Origin: Noviherbaspirillum massiliense JC206
Lineage (GTDB): Bacteria > Pseudomonadota > Gammaproteobacteria > Burkholderiales > Burkholderiaceae_D
Assembly (NCBI RefSeq): GCF_000312045.1
Contig: NZ_HE978635.1
Span: 610,774 to 674,773 of the forward strand
Direction: 5' to 3'
DNA length: 64,000 nt
Under the pieces are notes generated by a model. The model searched no databases, was not told the origin of the DNA, and saw nothing but the letters and a program-made list of their open reading frames with translations. Shown here piece after piece: positions 1-61,341 of this stretch. How positions within the stretch are numbered: position 1 is the first letter of the stretch; each line of letters opens with the position of its first letter. Position numbers and translations under genes: made by a program.

Positions 1-117
1 GGTAACTATGTATTGGGTACCAACCGGTTCCAGGCGGAGATTGAAAGAATGGTGGGGCGGCGAGTGGTAAAGGGAAAGGCGGGCCGACCTAGGGAGCGAC
101 AGCACCAAAAAGAATAA
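1..117 (+). CDS. REP-associated tyrosine transposase (RAYT), C-terminal fragment
   Basis: The frame is open from the window edge and encodes 38 residues ending in a basic tail (LGTNRF, then RRVVKGKAGRPRE) before TAA at 115-117. This resembles the C-terminal tail of Y1/RAYT transposases, where LGS-RF and GRPRK-type endings are common. The text just after the stop (TGGTCTGTCCCCTATTTA) is the kind of tail often seen next to these genes. The catalytic HUH and Tyr part lies outside the window, so this rests on the tail alone. Confidence 0.55.
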   Translation, partial: GNYVLGTNRFQAEIERMVGRRVVKGKAGRPRERQHQKE

Positions 118-24051: not shown

Positions 24052-24071
24052 TACTGTAAATTTATACAGTA
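24052..24071 (+). promoter_or_regulatory. LexA (SOS) box
   Basis: TACTGTAAATTTATACAGTA has the core CTGT-N8-ACAG (24054-24069) and is palindromic over nearly all of its 20 bases, very close to the E. coli SOS consensus. It lies 35 bases upstream of imuA and should hold the imuA-imuB-dnaE2 operon off until DNA damage. Confidence 0.93.
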
Positions 24072-24105: not shown

Positions 24106-24849
24106 ATGACCCTGCCTCTTTCTTTCGCTGCGGCGTCCGGTGCCGCCGGCGTGGCCGCTGCCTTGCCCGACGTCTGGCTGGCGAACCAGATGGCGTCGTA
24201 CCGCACCGCGGCCATCGCCACCGGACAGGCCTTGCTCGATCGCGAACTGCCGGACGGTGGCTGGCCGCCGGGCGCCCTGATCGAATTGCTGGCGCAGCAG
24301 CCGGGCATCGGGGAAATGCGCCTGCTGCAGCCGGCGCTGCGGCAGCGCGCAAGCCGCGCCCTGGCCCTGGTCCAGCCGCCGCATCTGCCGCAGGCGGCGG
24401 CCTGGGCGGTCGAAGCCTTTCCGGTCGAGCGCATGCTCTGGATAAAAGCTTCCCGTGCTGCCGATGCCTTGTGGGCTGCCGAGCAAATCCTGCGCAACCG
24501 GGCCTGCGGCGCACTGGTGCTGTGGCAGCCGCATATCCGCCATGAATCCCTGCGCCGCCTGCATCTGGCTGCGCAAGCGGCGGATACCCTGTTCTGGATG
24601 ATTCGCCCGCTGACCGCCGCCCAGGAAGCGTCGCCGGCGCCGCTGCGCCTGGCATTGCGGCCGGCAGCCGGCGGCATCCGCATCGACATCCTGAAGCGGC
24701 GCGGCCCGCGCCGCGATGAACCGCTCCTCGTGCCGCTCGAGCGCATGCCGGCGGCAACTTCCTTTCCCACCGAGACCAGCCATGCGTTTGTGGATCAGCG
24801 TGCATCTTCCCCTGCTGCCCCTCGAGACCTATCGTCCGCGCTGGTCTGA
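24106..24849 (+). CDS. imuA: ImuA, SOS mutagenesis protein
   Basis: The 247-residue protein is the ImuA (RecA/SulA-like) member of the mutasome. Typical features are the VWLANQMASYRTAAIATGQALLD region and DRELPDGGWPPGALIELLAQQPGIGEMRLL, which matches the family's G-WP-GaL-ElL--q-GiGElrLL block. LexA control (box at 24054) and the order imuA-imuB-dnaE2 make the assignment secure. It overlaps imuB by 68 bases in another frame. Confidence 0.93.
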   Translation: MTLPLSFAAASGAAGVAAALPDVWLANQMASYRTAAIATGQALLDRELPDGGWPPGALIELLAQQPGIGEMRLLQPALRQRASRALALVQPPHLPQAAAWAVEAFPVERMLWIKASRAADALWAAEQILRNRACGALVLWQPHIRHESLRRLHLAAQAADTLFWMIRPLTAAQEASPAPLRLALRPAAGGIRIDILKRRGPRRDEPLLVPLERMPAATSFPTETSHAFVDQRASSPAAPRDLSSALV

Positions 24850-26356
24850 GCCGGGGCCGCATGCCGTCCTCGAACGGGAGCGCGTGCTGGCCGCCAGCGG
24901 CGCCGCCCTGCAAGCCGGCGTGCGCCCCGGCATGAAGCGCAATGGCGCACTCGCCCTTTGTCCCGATACGCGCTTTTACGAGCGCGATGCCCAGCGCGAG
25001 CGCCAGGCCATCGACAGCATCGCCCTGTGCCTGCTGCAGTACACGCCGGAAGTCGCGCTCGCGGCGCTGCACAACCTGATGATGGATATCAGCGCGAGCC
25101 TGCGCGCCTTCGGCGGCTTGCGCCGCTTGTTCCGCCTGGTAGAGAAGGATGTGCGCGAACTCGGATTCACGGCCCGCCTGGCCCTGGCGCCCACCGCCCA
25201 GGGGGCATGGCTGCTTGCGCAGGCAACTGGTGCCGCAATCCGCCGGCGCCGCGCCGTCAAGCTGGCCACGCTCATGCACAGGCTCGACCGCATTCCCTGC
25301 CATTTCCTGCCAGCGCTGGAACCTTATGCGGATTGGATTGCCGGCATCGGCTGCCGGACCCTGGGCGATGTGCGGCGCCTGCCGCGCGCCGGCCTGAAGC
25401 GGCGCTGCAATGAAGCGGTGCTGGATGCGCTGGATCGGGCCTATGGCGAGGCGCCGGAAATGTTCAACTGGATTGTTGCGCCGGAAGTCTTTTCCACACG
25501 GCTGGAACTGCCGGACCGCATCGAGCATGCGGAAGCGCTGCTGTTCGGCGCGCGGCGCCTGCTCCTGCAAATGACGGGATGGCTGGCGGCGCGGCAGCTG
25601 GCAGTCGAGCGCCTGGTCCTGGCACTGGAGCATGAGCGCGGCCGGCAGGCGATACCGCCAACCTTGCTGGAACTGGCGCTGGCCGAGGCGACATGGCAGG
25701 AAGCGCATGTGACGCGCCTGCTCAAGGAACGGCTGGGGCGCATCGAACTGGCGGCGCCCGTCATTGCCTTGCGGCTGGAAGCGACCCACACCACGGCGAT
25801 GGCAGCGCCATCCGGATCGCTGTTTCCCGAGCCGGGCGGCACGCCTGCCGACTTCGCCCGCCTGGTCGAACTCTTGTCCGCCCGCCTGGGCAGCGATAAT
25901 GTGCTGATGCCTGCGCTGCATGCGGACCATCGTCCGGAAGCCTGCAACCGCTGGCAGCCTGCCGGCCTCGCTGCCACGGCGATTTCCGCAAGCCTGAAAG
26001 GGACGGAAAGCAGGGGGCGCCGTGCGCACCGGGATGACATGGTGCGCGCGGCGCACCCTACTTCCCCATCGCAAATTGAAATTCGTTCCAAGCAGCCGGA
26101 GCTGCCGGCATATGAACGCCCGTTCTGGCTGCTCGCCTCGCCCGTCGAACTGATGCTGCGCGAGCATCGGCCGTTTTATGGCTCGCCCCTGCGCCTGGCG
26201 GGCAGCCCGGAACGCATCGAGTGCGGCTGGTGGGATGGCAGGCTGGTGGTGCGGGATTATTTCATCGCTCAGGGCGCGGACCAGGCCTGGTACTGGATTT
26301 ACCGCGAGCGGCAGGGAGATGACATCCGCTGGTACCTGCATGGTCTCTTCGGATAA
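24782..26356 (+). CDS. imuB: ImuB, Y-family polymerase-like mutasome subunit
   Basis: The 524-residue protein starts at 24782 (MRLWISVHLPLLPLE). It is Y-family-like but lacks the acidic catalytic motifs: the N-terminal strand reads SVHLPLLPLE and the second motif LMMDISASLRAFGG has no DE pair. It is therefore probably a non-catalytic adaptor that binds the beta clamp and DnaE2, as known for ImuB. Residues about 410-436 are encoded by a dispersed repeat (26008-26089). The stop is 3 bases before dnaE2. Confidence 0.93.
   Translation: MRLWISVHLPLLPLETYRPRWSEPGPHAVLERERVLAASGAALQAGVRPGMKRNGALALCPDTRFYERDAQRERQAIDSIALCLLQYTPEVALAALHNLMMDISASLRAFGGLRRLFRLVEKDVRELGFTARLALAPTAQGAWLLAQATGAAIRRRRAVKLATLMHRLDRIPCHFLPALEPYADWIAGIGCRTLGDVRRLPRAGLKRRCNEAVLDALDRAYGEAPEMFNWIVAPEVFSTRLELPDRIEHAEALLFGARRLLLQMTGWLAARQLAVERLVLALEHERGRQAIPPTLLELALAEATWQEAHVTRLLKERLGRIELAAPVIALRLEATHTTAMAAPSGSLFPEPGGTPADFARLVELLSARLGSDNVLMPALHADHRPEACNRWQPAGLAATAISASLKGTESRGRRAHRDDMVRAAHPTSPSQIEIRSKQPELPAYERPFWLLASPVELMLREHRPFYGSPLRLAGSPERIECGWWDGRLVVRDYFIAQGADQAWYWIYRERQGDDIRWYLHGLFG
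26008..26089 (+). repeat. Dispersed hairpin repeat, copy A, inside imuB
   Basis: A left arm GGCGCCGTGCGCACC (26016-26030), a 10-base loop and a right arm (26041-26054) form a strong stem, followed by a tail with CCCTACTTC and ATTGAAATTCGTT. The right arm and tail match copy B (61174-61254) with about 7 differences in 49 bases. It is in frame with imuB and adds about 27 residues rich in Arg, Ala and His. Confidence 0.8.
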
Positions 26357-26359
26357 GCC

Positions 26360-29300
26360 ATGGCAGCCATGCCCGAAATCCTGCCGGCCTATGCCGAATT
26401 GCAGTGTGTCTCCAACTTCACTTTCCTGCGCGGCGCTTCCCATCCGGAAGAGCTTGCGGCGCGGGCGGCGAAACTGGGCTACCGCGCGCTTGCGCCGACA
26501 GATGAATGTTCGGTGGCCGGCGTCGTGCGCGCCCATGTCGAAGCGAAGAAGCTCGGCTTGCACCTGATTGTCGGCAGCCAGTTCCGGGTGACCGACGACA
26601 CCGGCCGGCCCGTCTTCACGCTCATCGTGCTGGCGCAAAACCGCGAAGGCTACGGCAACCTGTGCGAACTCATCACGCTCGGGCGCACGCGGGCGGACAA
26701 GGGCAGTTACCGCATCACGCTGGCGGACTTCACTCATCCCGACAAGCCGCATGCGCACTTGCGCGGCATGCCCGGCTGCCTCGTGCTCCTCGCTCCCGCT
26801 TACCGCATCCGGGAAGCGGAATTGCAGCAGCAGGCGCAGTGGCTGCGCACCGCCTTTCCCGGCCGTGCCTGGCTGGCCCTGACCCTGCTGCACCAGGCGC
26901 GCGATGTGCAGCACCGCTATGTGATCGAGCAGGTTGCACAGAATCTCGGGCTGCCCGTCGCTGCCACCGGCGATGTGTGCATGCATGTGCGTTCGCGCAA
27001 GCCCCTGCAGGACATCCTGACCGCCATTCGCCTGTGCAAGCCGGTTGCCGAGTGCGGCTTCGAACTCGCGCCGAATGCGGAGCAGCATTTGCGTTCCCGG
27101 CTGCGGCTGGGGAATATCTATCCGCCGGCCGCACTCGCCGAGACGATCCGGATAGCCGATCTGTGTACCTTTTCGCTGGATGAATTGCGCTATGAATACC
27201 CGGATGAACTGGTGCCGCCGGGCGAAACCGCAGCGAGCTATCTGCGCAAGGAAACCTACATCGGCGCACAGCACCGCTTCCCCCATGGCATCCCGGCCAG
27301 CGTGCAACAGCAGGTCGAACATGAACTGACGCTGATCGGCGAGATGGCGTATGAACCGTACTTCCTGACGGTGTACGACATCGTCCGTTTCGCCCGCAGC
27401 CGCCACATCCTGTGCCAGGGCCGCGGGTCCGCCGCCAACAGCGCCGTCTGCTATTGCCTGGGCATTACCGAAGTCGACCCGGCGCGTGGCAATCTCCTGT
27501 TCGAGCGCTTCATCTCGAAGGAGCGCAATGAACCGCCGGACATCGATGTCGATTTCGAGCACCAGCGGCGGGAAGAAGTCATCCAGTACATCTACGAAAA
27601 ATACGGCCGACAGCGCGCGGCATTGACGGGCGTCGTCATCAGTTACCGGCCGAGGAGCGCGCTGCGGGATGTCGGCAAGGCGCTCGGCGTGGACCTGAGC
27701 ATCGTCGACCAGGTGGCGAAATCGCATCGCTGGTGGGATGGCAAGACGGCATTGGCCGAACGCTTGCAGGAATGCGGCATGGACCCGGATTCGCCGATTG
27801 CCCGGCACTGGGTCGGCCTCGCCCAAACCCTGCTGGGTTTTCCGCGCCACCTGTCGCAGCATCCGGGCGGCTTCGTCATCGCGCGCGGCAAGCTGTCGCG
27901 CCTGGTGCCGATCGAAAACGCGGCCATGGCGGACAGGAGCGTCGTGCAATGGGACAAGGATGACCTGGATGCCTTGGGCCTGCTCAAGGTCGACATCCTC
28001 GCGCTGGGCATGCTGAGCATGATTCGCCGCGCACTGGACCTCATCTCGCAGCAGCGCGGCGAACGCTTCGAATTGCAGGATATCCCGGCGGAAGACCCGG
28101 CGACCTATGCCATGATCAGCCGCGCCGATACCGTCGGCGTGTTCCAGATCGAAAGCCGGGCGCAGATGTCGATGCTGCCGCGCATGCAGCCATGCACTTT
28201 CTATGACCTGGTGATTGAAGTGGCGATCATCCGCCCCGGTCCCATCCAGGGCGGGATGGTGCATCCCTATCTCAAGCGCCGGCAGGGCCTGGAGCCGGTC
28301 ACCTATCCCAGCGCCGAAGTAGAGCAGGCGCTGTCGCGCACGCTGGGCGTGCCGATCTTCCAGGAACAGGTGATGCAGATTGCGATGCTGGCCGGCGGCT
28401 TTTCGCCCGGAGAAGCCGACCAGCTGCGGCGCGCCATGGCCGCGTGGAAGCGCAAGGGACAGCTCGATAAATTCCAGGACAAGCTCACGCAGGGGATGCT
28501 CGCGCGCGACTATTCGGAAGAGTTCGCGCAACAGATTTGCCAGCAGGTGCAGGGCTTCGCGGAATACGGCTTCCCTGAAAGCCATGCGGCGAGCTTCGCC
28601 TTGCTCGCCTATGCCAGCAGCTGGCTGAAATGCCACGAGCCGGAAGCCTTCCTCGCGGCGCTGCTGAATTCGCAGCCGATGGGTTTTTATGCGCCGGCGC
28701 AGCTGGTGCAGGATGCGCGCCGGCATGGCGTCGAAGTCTTGCCGGTGGAAGTGCAGGCGAGCCAATGGGAAGCGGTGCTCGAAGACACCGGGCGCAGCCG
28801 GACAGCCGTGCGGCTCGGCTTGAACATGGTGTCGGGCCTGTCGCAGGAAGCAGGCTTGCGCATCGAGGAAGCGCGCGCCATCCGGCCGTTTGCCGACCTG
28901 CGCGACCTCGCATTGCGGGCACAGCTGACGCGCACGGAACTCGAAAAGCTGGCGCAGGCGAATGCCCTGGTCTCGCTGGCCGGCCACCGGCGCGAGGCGC
29001 TGTGGCATGCCCTGGCGGCCGCGCCGGAGCGCGGCTTGCTGAAGCGAGCGGCGATAGCGGAAGAGGAAGTGCAGTTGCCCGCGCCCTCGGAAGCGGAAAA
29101 CATCGCCGGCGACTATCGTTCCATCGGCCTGACGCTCGGGCGCCATCCGGTGGCGCTGCTGCGGCCGACTCTCGCCAGGATGCGCTTCCTGCCGGCCGAA
29201 GTGCTCAATACCTTTGCCGACCGCCAGATTGCGCGCGGCTGCGGCATCGTGACGGTGCGCCAGCGCCCGGAAACCGCCAGGGGCGTGGTCTTCATCACGA

Positions 29301-29506
29301 TGGAGGACGAGACCGGGCCGATCAACGTGATCGTGTGGCCGGACCTGGTCGAGAAGCAGCGCAAAGAAGTCCTGAGCGCATCGCTGCTCGGCGTGTATGG
29401 CATCTGGCAGTGCGAAGCCCAAGTGCGGCATCTGGTCGCCAAGCGCCTGGTCGACTTGTCGCACCTGCTGGGGAAGCTGGAGTCGGGCAGTCGGGATTTT
29501 TGCTAG
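26360..29506 (+). CDS. dnaE2: DnaE2, error-prone DNA polymerase III alpha-like
   Basis: The 1048-residue C-family polymerase has an N-terminal PHP domain (AYAELQCVSNFTFLRGASHPEEL), the palm motifs RGSAANSAVCYCLGIT and PPDIDVDFEHQRREEVI (catalytic Asp cluster), and a C-terminal OB-fold (RGCGIVTVRQRPETARGVVF). It does translesion synthesis with ImuA/B. It starts three bases after imuB; an alternative ATG is at 26369. It is convergent with the GntR gene. Confidence 0.94.
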   Translation: MAAMPEILPAYAELQCVSNFTFLRGASHPEELAARAAKLGYRALAPTDECSVAGVVRAHVEAKKLGLHLIVGSQFRVTDDTGRPVFTLIVLAQNREGYGNLCELITLGRTRADKGSYRITLADFTHPDKPHAHLRGMPGCLVLLAPAYRIREAELQQQAQWLRTAFPGRAWLALTLLHQARDVQHRYVIEQVAQNLGLPVAATGDVCMHVRSRKPLQDILTAIRLCKPVAECGFELAPNAEQHLRSRLRLGNIYPPAALAETIRIADLCTFSLDELRYEYPDELVPPGETAASYLRKETYIGAQHRFPHGIPASVQQQVEHELTLIGEMAYEPYFLTVYDIVRFARSRHILCQGRGSAANSAVCYCLGITEVDPARGNLLFERFISKERNEPPDIDVDFEHQRREEVIQYIYEKYGRQRAALTGVVISYRPRSALRDVGKALGVDLSIVDQVAKSHRWWDGKTALAERLQECGMDPDSPIARHWVGLAQTLLGFPRHLSQHPGGFVIARGKLSRLVPIENAAMADRSVVQWDKDDLDALGLLKVDILALGMLSMIRRALDLISQQRGERFELQDIPAEDPATYAMISRADTVGVFQIESRAQMSMLPRMQPCTFYDLVIEVAIIRPGPIQGGMVHPYLKRRQGLEPVTYPSAEVEQALSRTLGVPIFQEQVMQIAMLAGGFSPGEADQLRRAMAAWKRKGQLDKFQDKLTQGMLARDYSEEFAQQICQQVQGFAEYGFPESHAASFALLAYASSWLKCHEPEAFLAALLNSQPMGFYAPAQLVQDARRHGVEVLPVEVQASQWEAVLEDTGRSRTAVRLGLNMVSGLSQEAGLRIEEARAIRPFADLRDLALRAQLTRTELEKLAQANALVSLAGHRREALWHALAAAPERGLLKRAAIAEEEVQLPAPSEAENIAGDYRSIGLTLGRHPVALLRPTLARMRFLPAEVLNTFADRQIARGCGIVTVRQRPETARGVVFITMEDETGPINVIVWPDLVEKQRKEVLSASLLGVYGIWQCEAQVRHLVAKRLVDLSHLLGKLESGSRDFC

Positions 29507-61173: not shown

Positions 61174-61254
61174 CAGCAGGGTGCGCCTGCGCACCATGCA
61201 ATCCCGGTGCGCACGGCGCCCCCTACTTCACCACGGCAGATTGAAATTCGTTAC
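61174..61254 (+). repeat. Dispersed hairpin repeat, copy B
   Basis: The left arm GGTGCGCCTGCGCACC (61180-61195), a 10-base loop ATGCAATCCC and the right arm GGTGCGCACGGCGCC (61206-61220) form a stem, followed by the CCCTACTTC ... ATTGAAATTCGTT tail. The right arm's reverse complement equals copy A's left arm exactly, and the loop's reverse complement matches copy A's loop at 8 of 10. The stem is thus inverted relative to the tail when compared with copy A. Confidence 0.8.
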
Positions 61255-61341
61255 AGGGCGCGGCCTTTGCGAAATCACCGGTTTGATCACTGCACCCGGC
61301 CAAGCCTTGCATTGGCTTGCCTTGTTCATCCGGCATGCCAG

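Follow-up and report, generated by a model that had tools for sequence, protein, structure and literature searches.

A GTAG-type REPIN lies in frame in the linker of imuB in Noviherbaspirillum massiliense and was probably spread by the genome's own RAYT

The imuB gene of Noviherbaspirillum massiliense JC206 contains, in frame and in the variable linker of its product, a copy of a short palindromic repeat that is dispersed through the genome and belongs to the GTAG-type REPINs. Very probably this element was spread by the genome's own REP-associated tyrosine transposase (RAYT), landed in the ImuB linker without breaking the frame, and was tolerated there. The window analysed, a stretch of 64,000 nucleotides, places imuB between imuA and a dnaE2-type gene, forming an imuA-imuB-dnaE2 cassette with the following features.

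24054..24069, forward strand: LexA-box-like palindrome CTGTAAATTTATACAG, 36 bases before imuA and the only match in the window
24106..24849, forward strand: imuA, first gene of the cassette (NF033429 ImuA, 218.1 bits, cutoff 150; no Pfam match)
24716..26356, forward strand: imuB, 546 amino acids, with about 36 extra residues near 421-456 (Pfam IMS; alignment to relatives)
26360..29506, forward strand: dnaE2-type error-prone DNA polymerase gene directly downstream of imuB (NF004225, 1569.8 bits, cutoff 939)

The palindrome was called with what is presumably the LexA box consensus, and because at least one such match also arises in 36 of 100 shuffles of the window, its position before imuA is the main evidence for a LexA box.

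The repeat within imuB, copy A, is a head-out doublet of GTAG-type REPs, or REPIN, in which two 21-nt units flank a 10-nt spacer. With the repeated tail on either side it measures about 118 bp (25974-26092) and is built as follows.

25974..26009, forward strand: left tail T1, within imuB; the same tail stands beside many genome copies
26010..26061, no strand assigned: REPIN core of two inverted 21-nt GTAG-type REP units and a 10-nt spacer
26062..26092, forward strand: right tail T2, containing ATTGAAATTCGTT (T2 pattern matches, alignment of copies)

The initial annotation had placed a palindromic element at 26008-26089; the repeat is real, but that extent is too short, for the right tail was seen and the equally repeated left tail was overlooked. 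Likewise, the insertion is indeed without a frameshift, yet it adds about 36 residues relative to the closest relative rather than the roughly 27 proposed. Copy A has drifted from the consensus in the outermost bases of T1, its left head reads GCAG and its right head GTAG, and as RNA it is predicted to fold into a hairpin of -46.4 kcal/mol (z -5.9).

Copy A and a second copy, copy B, were the only two copies originally described, and direct reading of the sequence finds both in place, but a search of the 4.19-Mb genome (3 contigs) with copy A, a rebuilt consensus and the REP head uncovers dozens. As a query, copy A returned 82 match rows on two contigs, the other full-length matches being 78-90% identical (E 4.2e-24 to 7.6e-12), while the 107-nt consensus, to which copy A is 91% identical over 106 nt (E 2.5e-36), gave 86 rows in this genome and, among 14 further genomes of the genus, 2 weak rows in a single one. 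The core being palindromic, many of these places are matched on both strands. For the REP head GTAGGGTGCGC, 90 exact occurrences in the genome stand against 2 of the reversed control. Each core consists of two inverted copies of the 21-nt unit GTAGGGTGCGCCGTGCGCACC, heads outward, separated by a directional 10-nt spacer resembling GGGATTGCAT, and 38 of the 57 head-out doublets in the fetched loci are exactly 52 nt long. In an alignment of 15 two-tailed copies the consensus fold is a hairpin of 23 pairs that does not extend beyond the core; in it the GTAG head bases, by definition unpaired in a REP unit, pair with each other, and 4 pairs are changed on both sides, with a covariation energy term of 0. 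A comparison with Rfam returned only 2 matches, to miRNA models and far below gathering, and identity with an Rfam family was rejected.

The left tail T1 (CTAAAGCGGTTTCCACAAGCCTGAAAGGGAAAG) and the right tail T2 (CCCATGGCAAATTGAAATTCGCTCTAG) occur, singly or together, on many copies: among 46 scored doublets, 17 carry both, 14 T1 only, 4 T2 only and 11 none. Pattern searches gave 18 matches to T1 and 11 to T2, with 0 in the reversed control in either case. The idea that the tails are repeats in their own right was discarded, as all of these matches adjoin a REP or a degenerate core, bar one T1 match at C2:908835 that has 3 mismatches and looks like chance. Elsewhere in the genome (locus L106, 1001-1060) a single REP hairpin with a T2 tail represents a one-unit version of the element, and the open reading frame just downstream of it presumably encodes a TerC-like protein.

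Copy B is intergenic and consists of two recognisable parts.

61176..61226, no strand assigned: REPIN core of 51 nt, its spacer reversed relative to T2
61227..61257, forward strand: right tail T2

On the left side of copy B there is no T1 above threshold. The stem had been described as inverted between the two copies, and this is borne out: the left arm and loop start of copy A (GGGGGCGCCGTGCGCACCGGGAT) equal the reverse complement of the right arm of copy B, and the loops agree at 8 of 10 positions as reverse complements. The right arm and tail are shared as well, with 6 differences in 47 positions in place of the earlier estimate of about 7 in 49. In part this apparent flip arises because the core consists of one unit and its inverted copy; the 10-nt spacer is nevertheless directional, and in copy B it is reversed with respect to the tail. 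The flip is real and recurrent in the family, because spacer orientation splits 25 to 10 among the 35 tailed doublets (15:2 in two-tailed copies and 10:8 in one-tailed ones). Near-identical arms may let the inverted repeat be re-inserted or exchanged in either orientation, although the way in which this would happen is inferred.

Genome-wide, the element is found mostly between genes. This holds for 46 of the 50 placed copies; 3 more overlap gene ends, and the imuB copy is the only one inside a called gene; these counts are approximate, since genes were called with a crude codon model trained on the window (coding fraction 0.78), degenerate copies inside genes could escape the count, and 10 of 60 matches, lying at the RAYT locus, are omitted from it, the heads there having been checked separately. 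Another 31 exact heads (29 distinct) were placed in other loci, every one of them outside called genes. At 40 distinct sites the element stands between convergent genes in 24 cases, between tandem genes in 12, between divergent genes in 3 and inside a gene in 1, whereas only 7 of the window's own 51 gene pairs are convergent. One T1-bearing copy (locus L030, 1479-1569) lies at the 3' end of a gene whose called reading frame runs a few bases into the element, from which its stop codon seems to come; the gene product we take to be an RND-efflux outer-membrane protein.

That the segment in ImuB is an insertion, as first suggested, is supported by alignment to its orthologs. Most tblastn matches of relatives to ImuB are interrupted from about residues 410-425 to about 456-467, and in G003, the closest relative, the parts on either side lie directly next to each other. 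Among 29 relatives' loci aligned, 27 are without the segment; one of the other two (L055) has unread bases at the site, and the second (L045) was read separately. By blastn, element DNA is present in none of 33 relatives' imuB loci, L055 being unread at the site: these are the same 29 and L120-L123, which were read as extra relatives, three of the four chosen because their match was unbroken through the linker. The best chance match was E 0.007 over 16 nt, against 5e-38 for copy A as positive control. A GTAG palindrome with an exact stem is likewise absent from the 29 loci. Thus orthologs do not all carry the segment, and further copies of the repeat do exist in the genome, so that neither observation proposed as grounds for rejecting the insertion was made. 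Because the nearest relative's ImuB is only 71% identical in protein and no precise empty site was found, the insert boundaries and any target duplication are not fixed exactly.

At this place the linkers of other ImuBs differ greatly in both length and sequence, and unrelated linkers of similar length occur in L045, L065, L069, L070 and L120-L122. (An order-wide survey of ImuB linkers, with matches in at least 190 of 399 genomes, enters no linker count given here.) The L045 linker, from another genus (G032; 2716-2850), is almost as long as that of the window and is rich in Gly, Ala and Arg and in G+C; tblastn counted one TGA inside the match. It folds strongly, but with a z of only -2.2 and with 7 of 200 shuffles folding equally well; elsewhere in that genome its best match reaches E 3.5e-4 over 42 nt and is not a clear repeat. 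No second REP insertion is seen in L045, whose strong fold is not beyond its G+C-rich make-up. As to the interrupted protein itself, relative-rate counts with 11 outgroups assign 21-34 changes in the N-terminal part to the window's branch as against 26-41 on the other, and 0-6 as against 2-5 in the C-terminal part. As the window's branch has no consistent surplus of changes, ImuB gives no clear sign of decay; the counts do not date the insertion.

The initial annotation had nominated a RAYT fragment at the left edge of the window as a possible mobiliser. A RAYT is likely, but the best candidate is an intact gene elsewhere in the same genome, where two Y1_Tnp matches exceed the cut-off.

C1:799068-799610: intact RAYT, 181 amino acids (NF047646 REP-associated tyrosine transposase, 201.9 bits, cutoff 80)

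The fragment (window positions 1-114, forward strand) opens inside a reading frame and ends GNYVLGTNRFQAEIERMVGRRVVKGKAGRPRE; its 38 residues have no NCBIfam match, and their ending is presumably typical of a RAYT C-terminus. The intact RAYT sits amid the same REPs, its 3.4-kb locus containing 9 REP heads when one mismatch is allowed, whereas the second Y1_Tnp match reaches 65.3 bits, below the NF047646 cutoff of 80, and has none of the same REP nearby. Around the RAYT (C1 ~798.8-803.0 kb; loci L102, 500-1600, and L084, 2270-3350) the REPs form BIME-like arrays of near-identical repeated units in which head-out pairs are spaced 77-92 nt. The repeats at the RAYT locus carry no tails and are mostly spaced more widely, so the tailed subfamily is not directly tied to this RAYT. 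Within the family, five genomes from another genus contain RAYTs 67-73% identical to it, and each of the five fetched loci (L109-L113) holds GTAGGGTGCGC, one of the genes having stops. Matches essentially to the core alone were found in at least 6 of 245 family genomes, this one included, with three candidates scored per genome. Other RAYTs of the family (L114, L117, L118) lie near different GTAG palindromes (GTAGCGTGCGC..., GTAGGGCGGGT... and GTAGGGTGCGCGCC...), so RAYT and REP sequence appear to co-vary.

The mobile palindromic element that tolerates coding insertion had at first been thought novel. It is a known kind, and its interest lies in the target gene, imuB. As described in the available text of PMC3116915 and PMC3733652, GTAG REPs and REPINs share with the present family the GTAG head, the palindromic unit, the head-out doublet able to form a hairpin, dispersal, a mostly extragenic position often between convergent genes, and a RAYT among the same REPs. 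The testable features are thus present here: a GTAG-tagged palindromic unit, an inverted doublet with a short spacer and a hairpin, dispersed and mostly extragenic copies, and a cognate RAYT. The family differs from those elements in its short non-REP tails, one or two of which are present on 35 of 46 doublets and bring the unit to about 118 bp, and it differs from the other-genus genomes, where essentially the core alone was matched. Intragenic REPs inserted in frame, too, have been reported: the available text of PMC3733652 places many of them in genes for replication, repair and error-prone polymerases, naming excinuclease ABC, recBCD, DNA polymerase I and dnaE2 among others, notes that REPs often lie between convergent genes and that some intragenic REPs strike the only coding sequences hit in their species, and speculates on mutators while leaving the reason open. 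The present case fits that pattern closely, as a REP dimer in frame in a gene of an error-prone polymerase cassette and, by the crude gene calls, in the only coding sequence hit, and it is for this reason filed as a REPIN of known kind. What differs is the target, imuB, a name with 0 occurrences in the main text of PMC3733652, although it may stand in the supplementary lists. Rickettsia palindromic elements also are small palindromic repeats lying in frame in protein genes; nearly half of those first reported sit in open reading frames according to the available text of PMC10969869, a share far from the 1 of 50 copies found inside a gene here.

How the element moves may be read in part from its ends. 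Cleavage by TnpA-REP falls at C|T on the 5' and the 3' side of REPs, according to the available text of PMC8266576, and the consensus outer ends bear CT, which by eye is kept at the left in 8 of 15 two-tailed copies and at the right in 7 of 15; copy A has CT at neither outer end. Several one-tailed copies stop just past the core near CTACTTCC, where CT is available too, and we infer that the use of either outer or inner CT sites underlies the tailed and one-tailed forms. On single-stranded DNA two inverted GTAG-headed units could fold into one long hairpin. RAYT (TnpA-REP) would act on it, being a single-strand tyrosine transposase with specificity for GTAG hairpins and with cut sites at neighbouring C|T dinucleotides. 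The genome's own RAYT most likely spread the REPIN with its two short tails, and one copy would then have entered imuB in frame, at the variable linker that joins the polymerase-like part of the protein to its C-terminal domain. It would have been tolerated there because the element can be read through in that phase and the linker can vary freely. Movement itself was not observed, and that this RAYT moved copy A, that the outer CT ends served as its cut sites, and that the insert is tolerated instead of useful are readings of the sequence.

The matching outer ends leave some room for another transposase, one of the DDE type, for which T1 and T2 would be the terminal inverted repeats of a MITE carrying the REPIN core as passenger. 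Over their outer 14 bases the tails agree at 10 positions (p 0.00015, anchored, the tail consensus having been chosen by eye beforehand), and 17 of 46 doublets have a tail on either side of the core. Local alignment of the two tails is weak (p 0.035), however, the tails lie outside the consensus fold, 18 doublets have one tail only and 11 have none. The proposed check for target duplications, made by eye in the 15 two-tailed copies, finds none that is consistent, and there is no clean empty site to compare. A MITE is an unlikely account beside spread by RAYT. Unlikeliest of all is a coincidental resemblance to the repeat in what would be an ordinary lineage-specific linker: linkers do vary among homologs, but the near-full-length identity of copy A to the consensus and the genome matches to both refute it.

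A different question is whether the insertion, once made, matters to its host. Added ImuB linker residues or a hairpin in the transcript might tune mutagenesis and be kept by selection, and it can be said for this that the only one of 50 copies in a called gene falls within the imuA-imuB-dnaE2 cassette, that the RNA hairpin is stable, that ImuB is not evidently decaying, and that, for the intragenic REPs of repair and dnaE2 genes, the available text of PMC3733652 considers targeting by chance hard to believe. Against it stand a single instance in this genome, the absence of the GTAG palindrome and of element DNA from the relatives' loci, the unrelated linkers of similar length elsewhere, L045 with its unexceptional fold among them, and the sufficiency of neutral tolerance; altered mutasome function is accordingly slightly more doubtful than the MITE. 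The broader proposition that mutagenesis genes are a recurrent, non-random site of REPIN landing or retention, and that the imuB insertion altered mutasome output and was kept for it, is slightly less credible again; if true, REPINs would be evolvable modifiers of their host's own mutation rate. Since linkers of comparable length but unrelated sequence occupy this position in some other ImuBs, neutral tolerance is the likeliest reading of the insert.

The window adds an imuB instance to the intragenic REPs, with no other placed copy inside a called gene in this genome. Whether such insertions are tolerated in flexible linkers of dispensable genes or alter mutagenesis is a question that a clean case with insert-free relatives makes testable, and the tailed copies with their reversible core offer a handle on where RAYTs cut.
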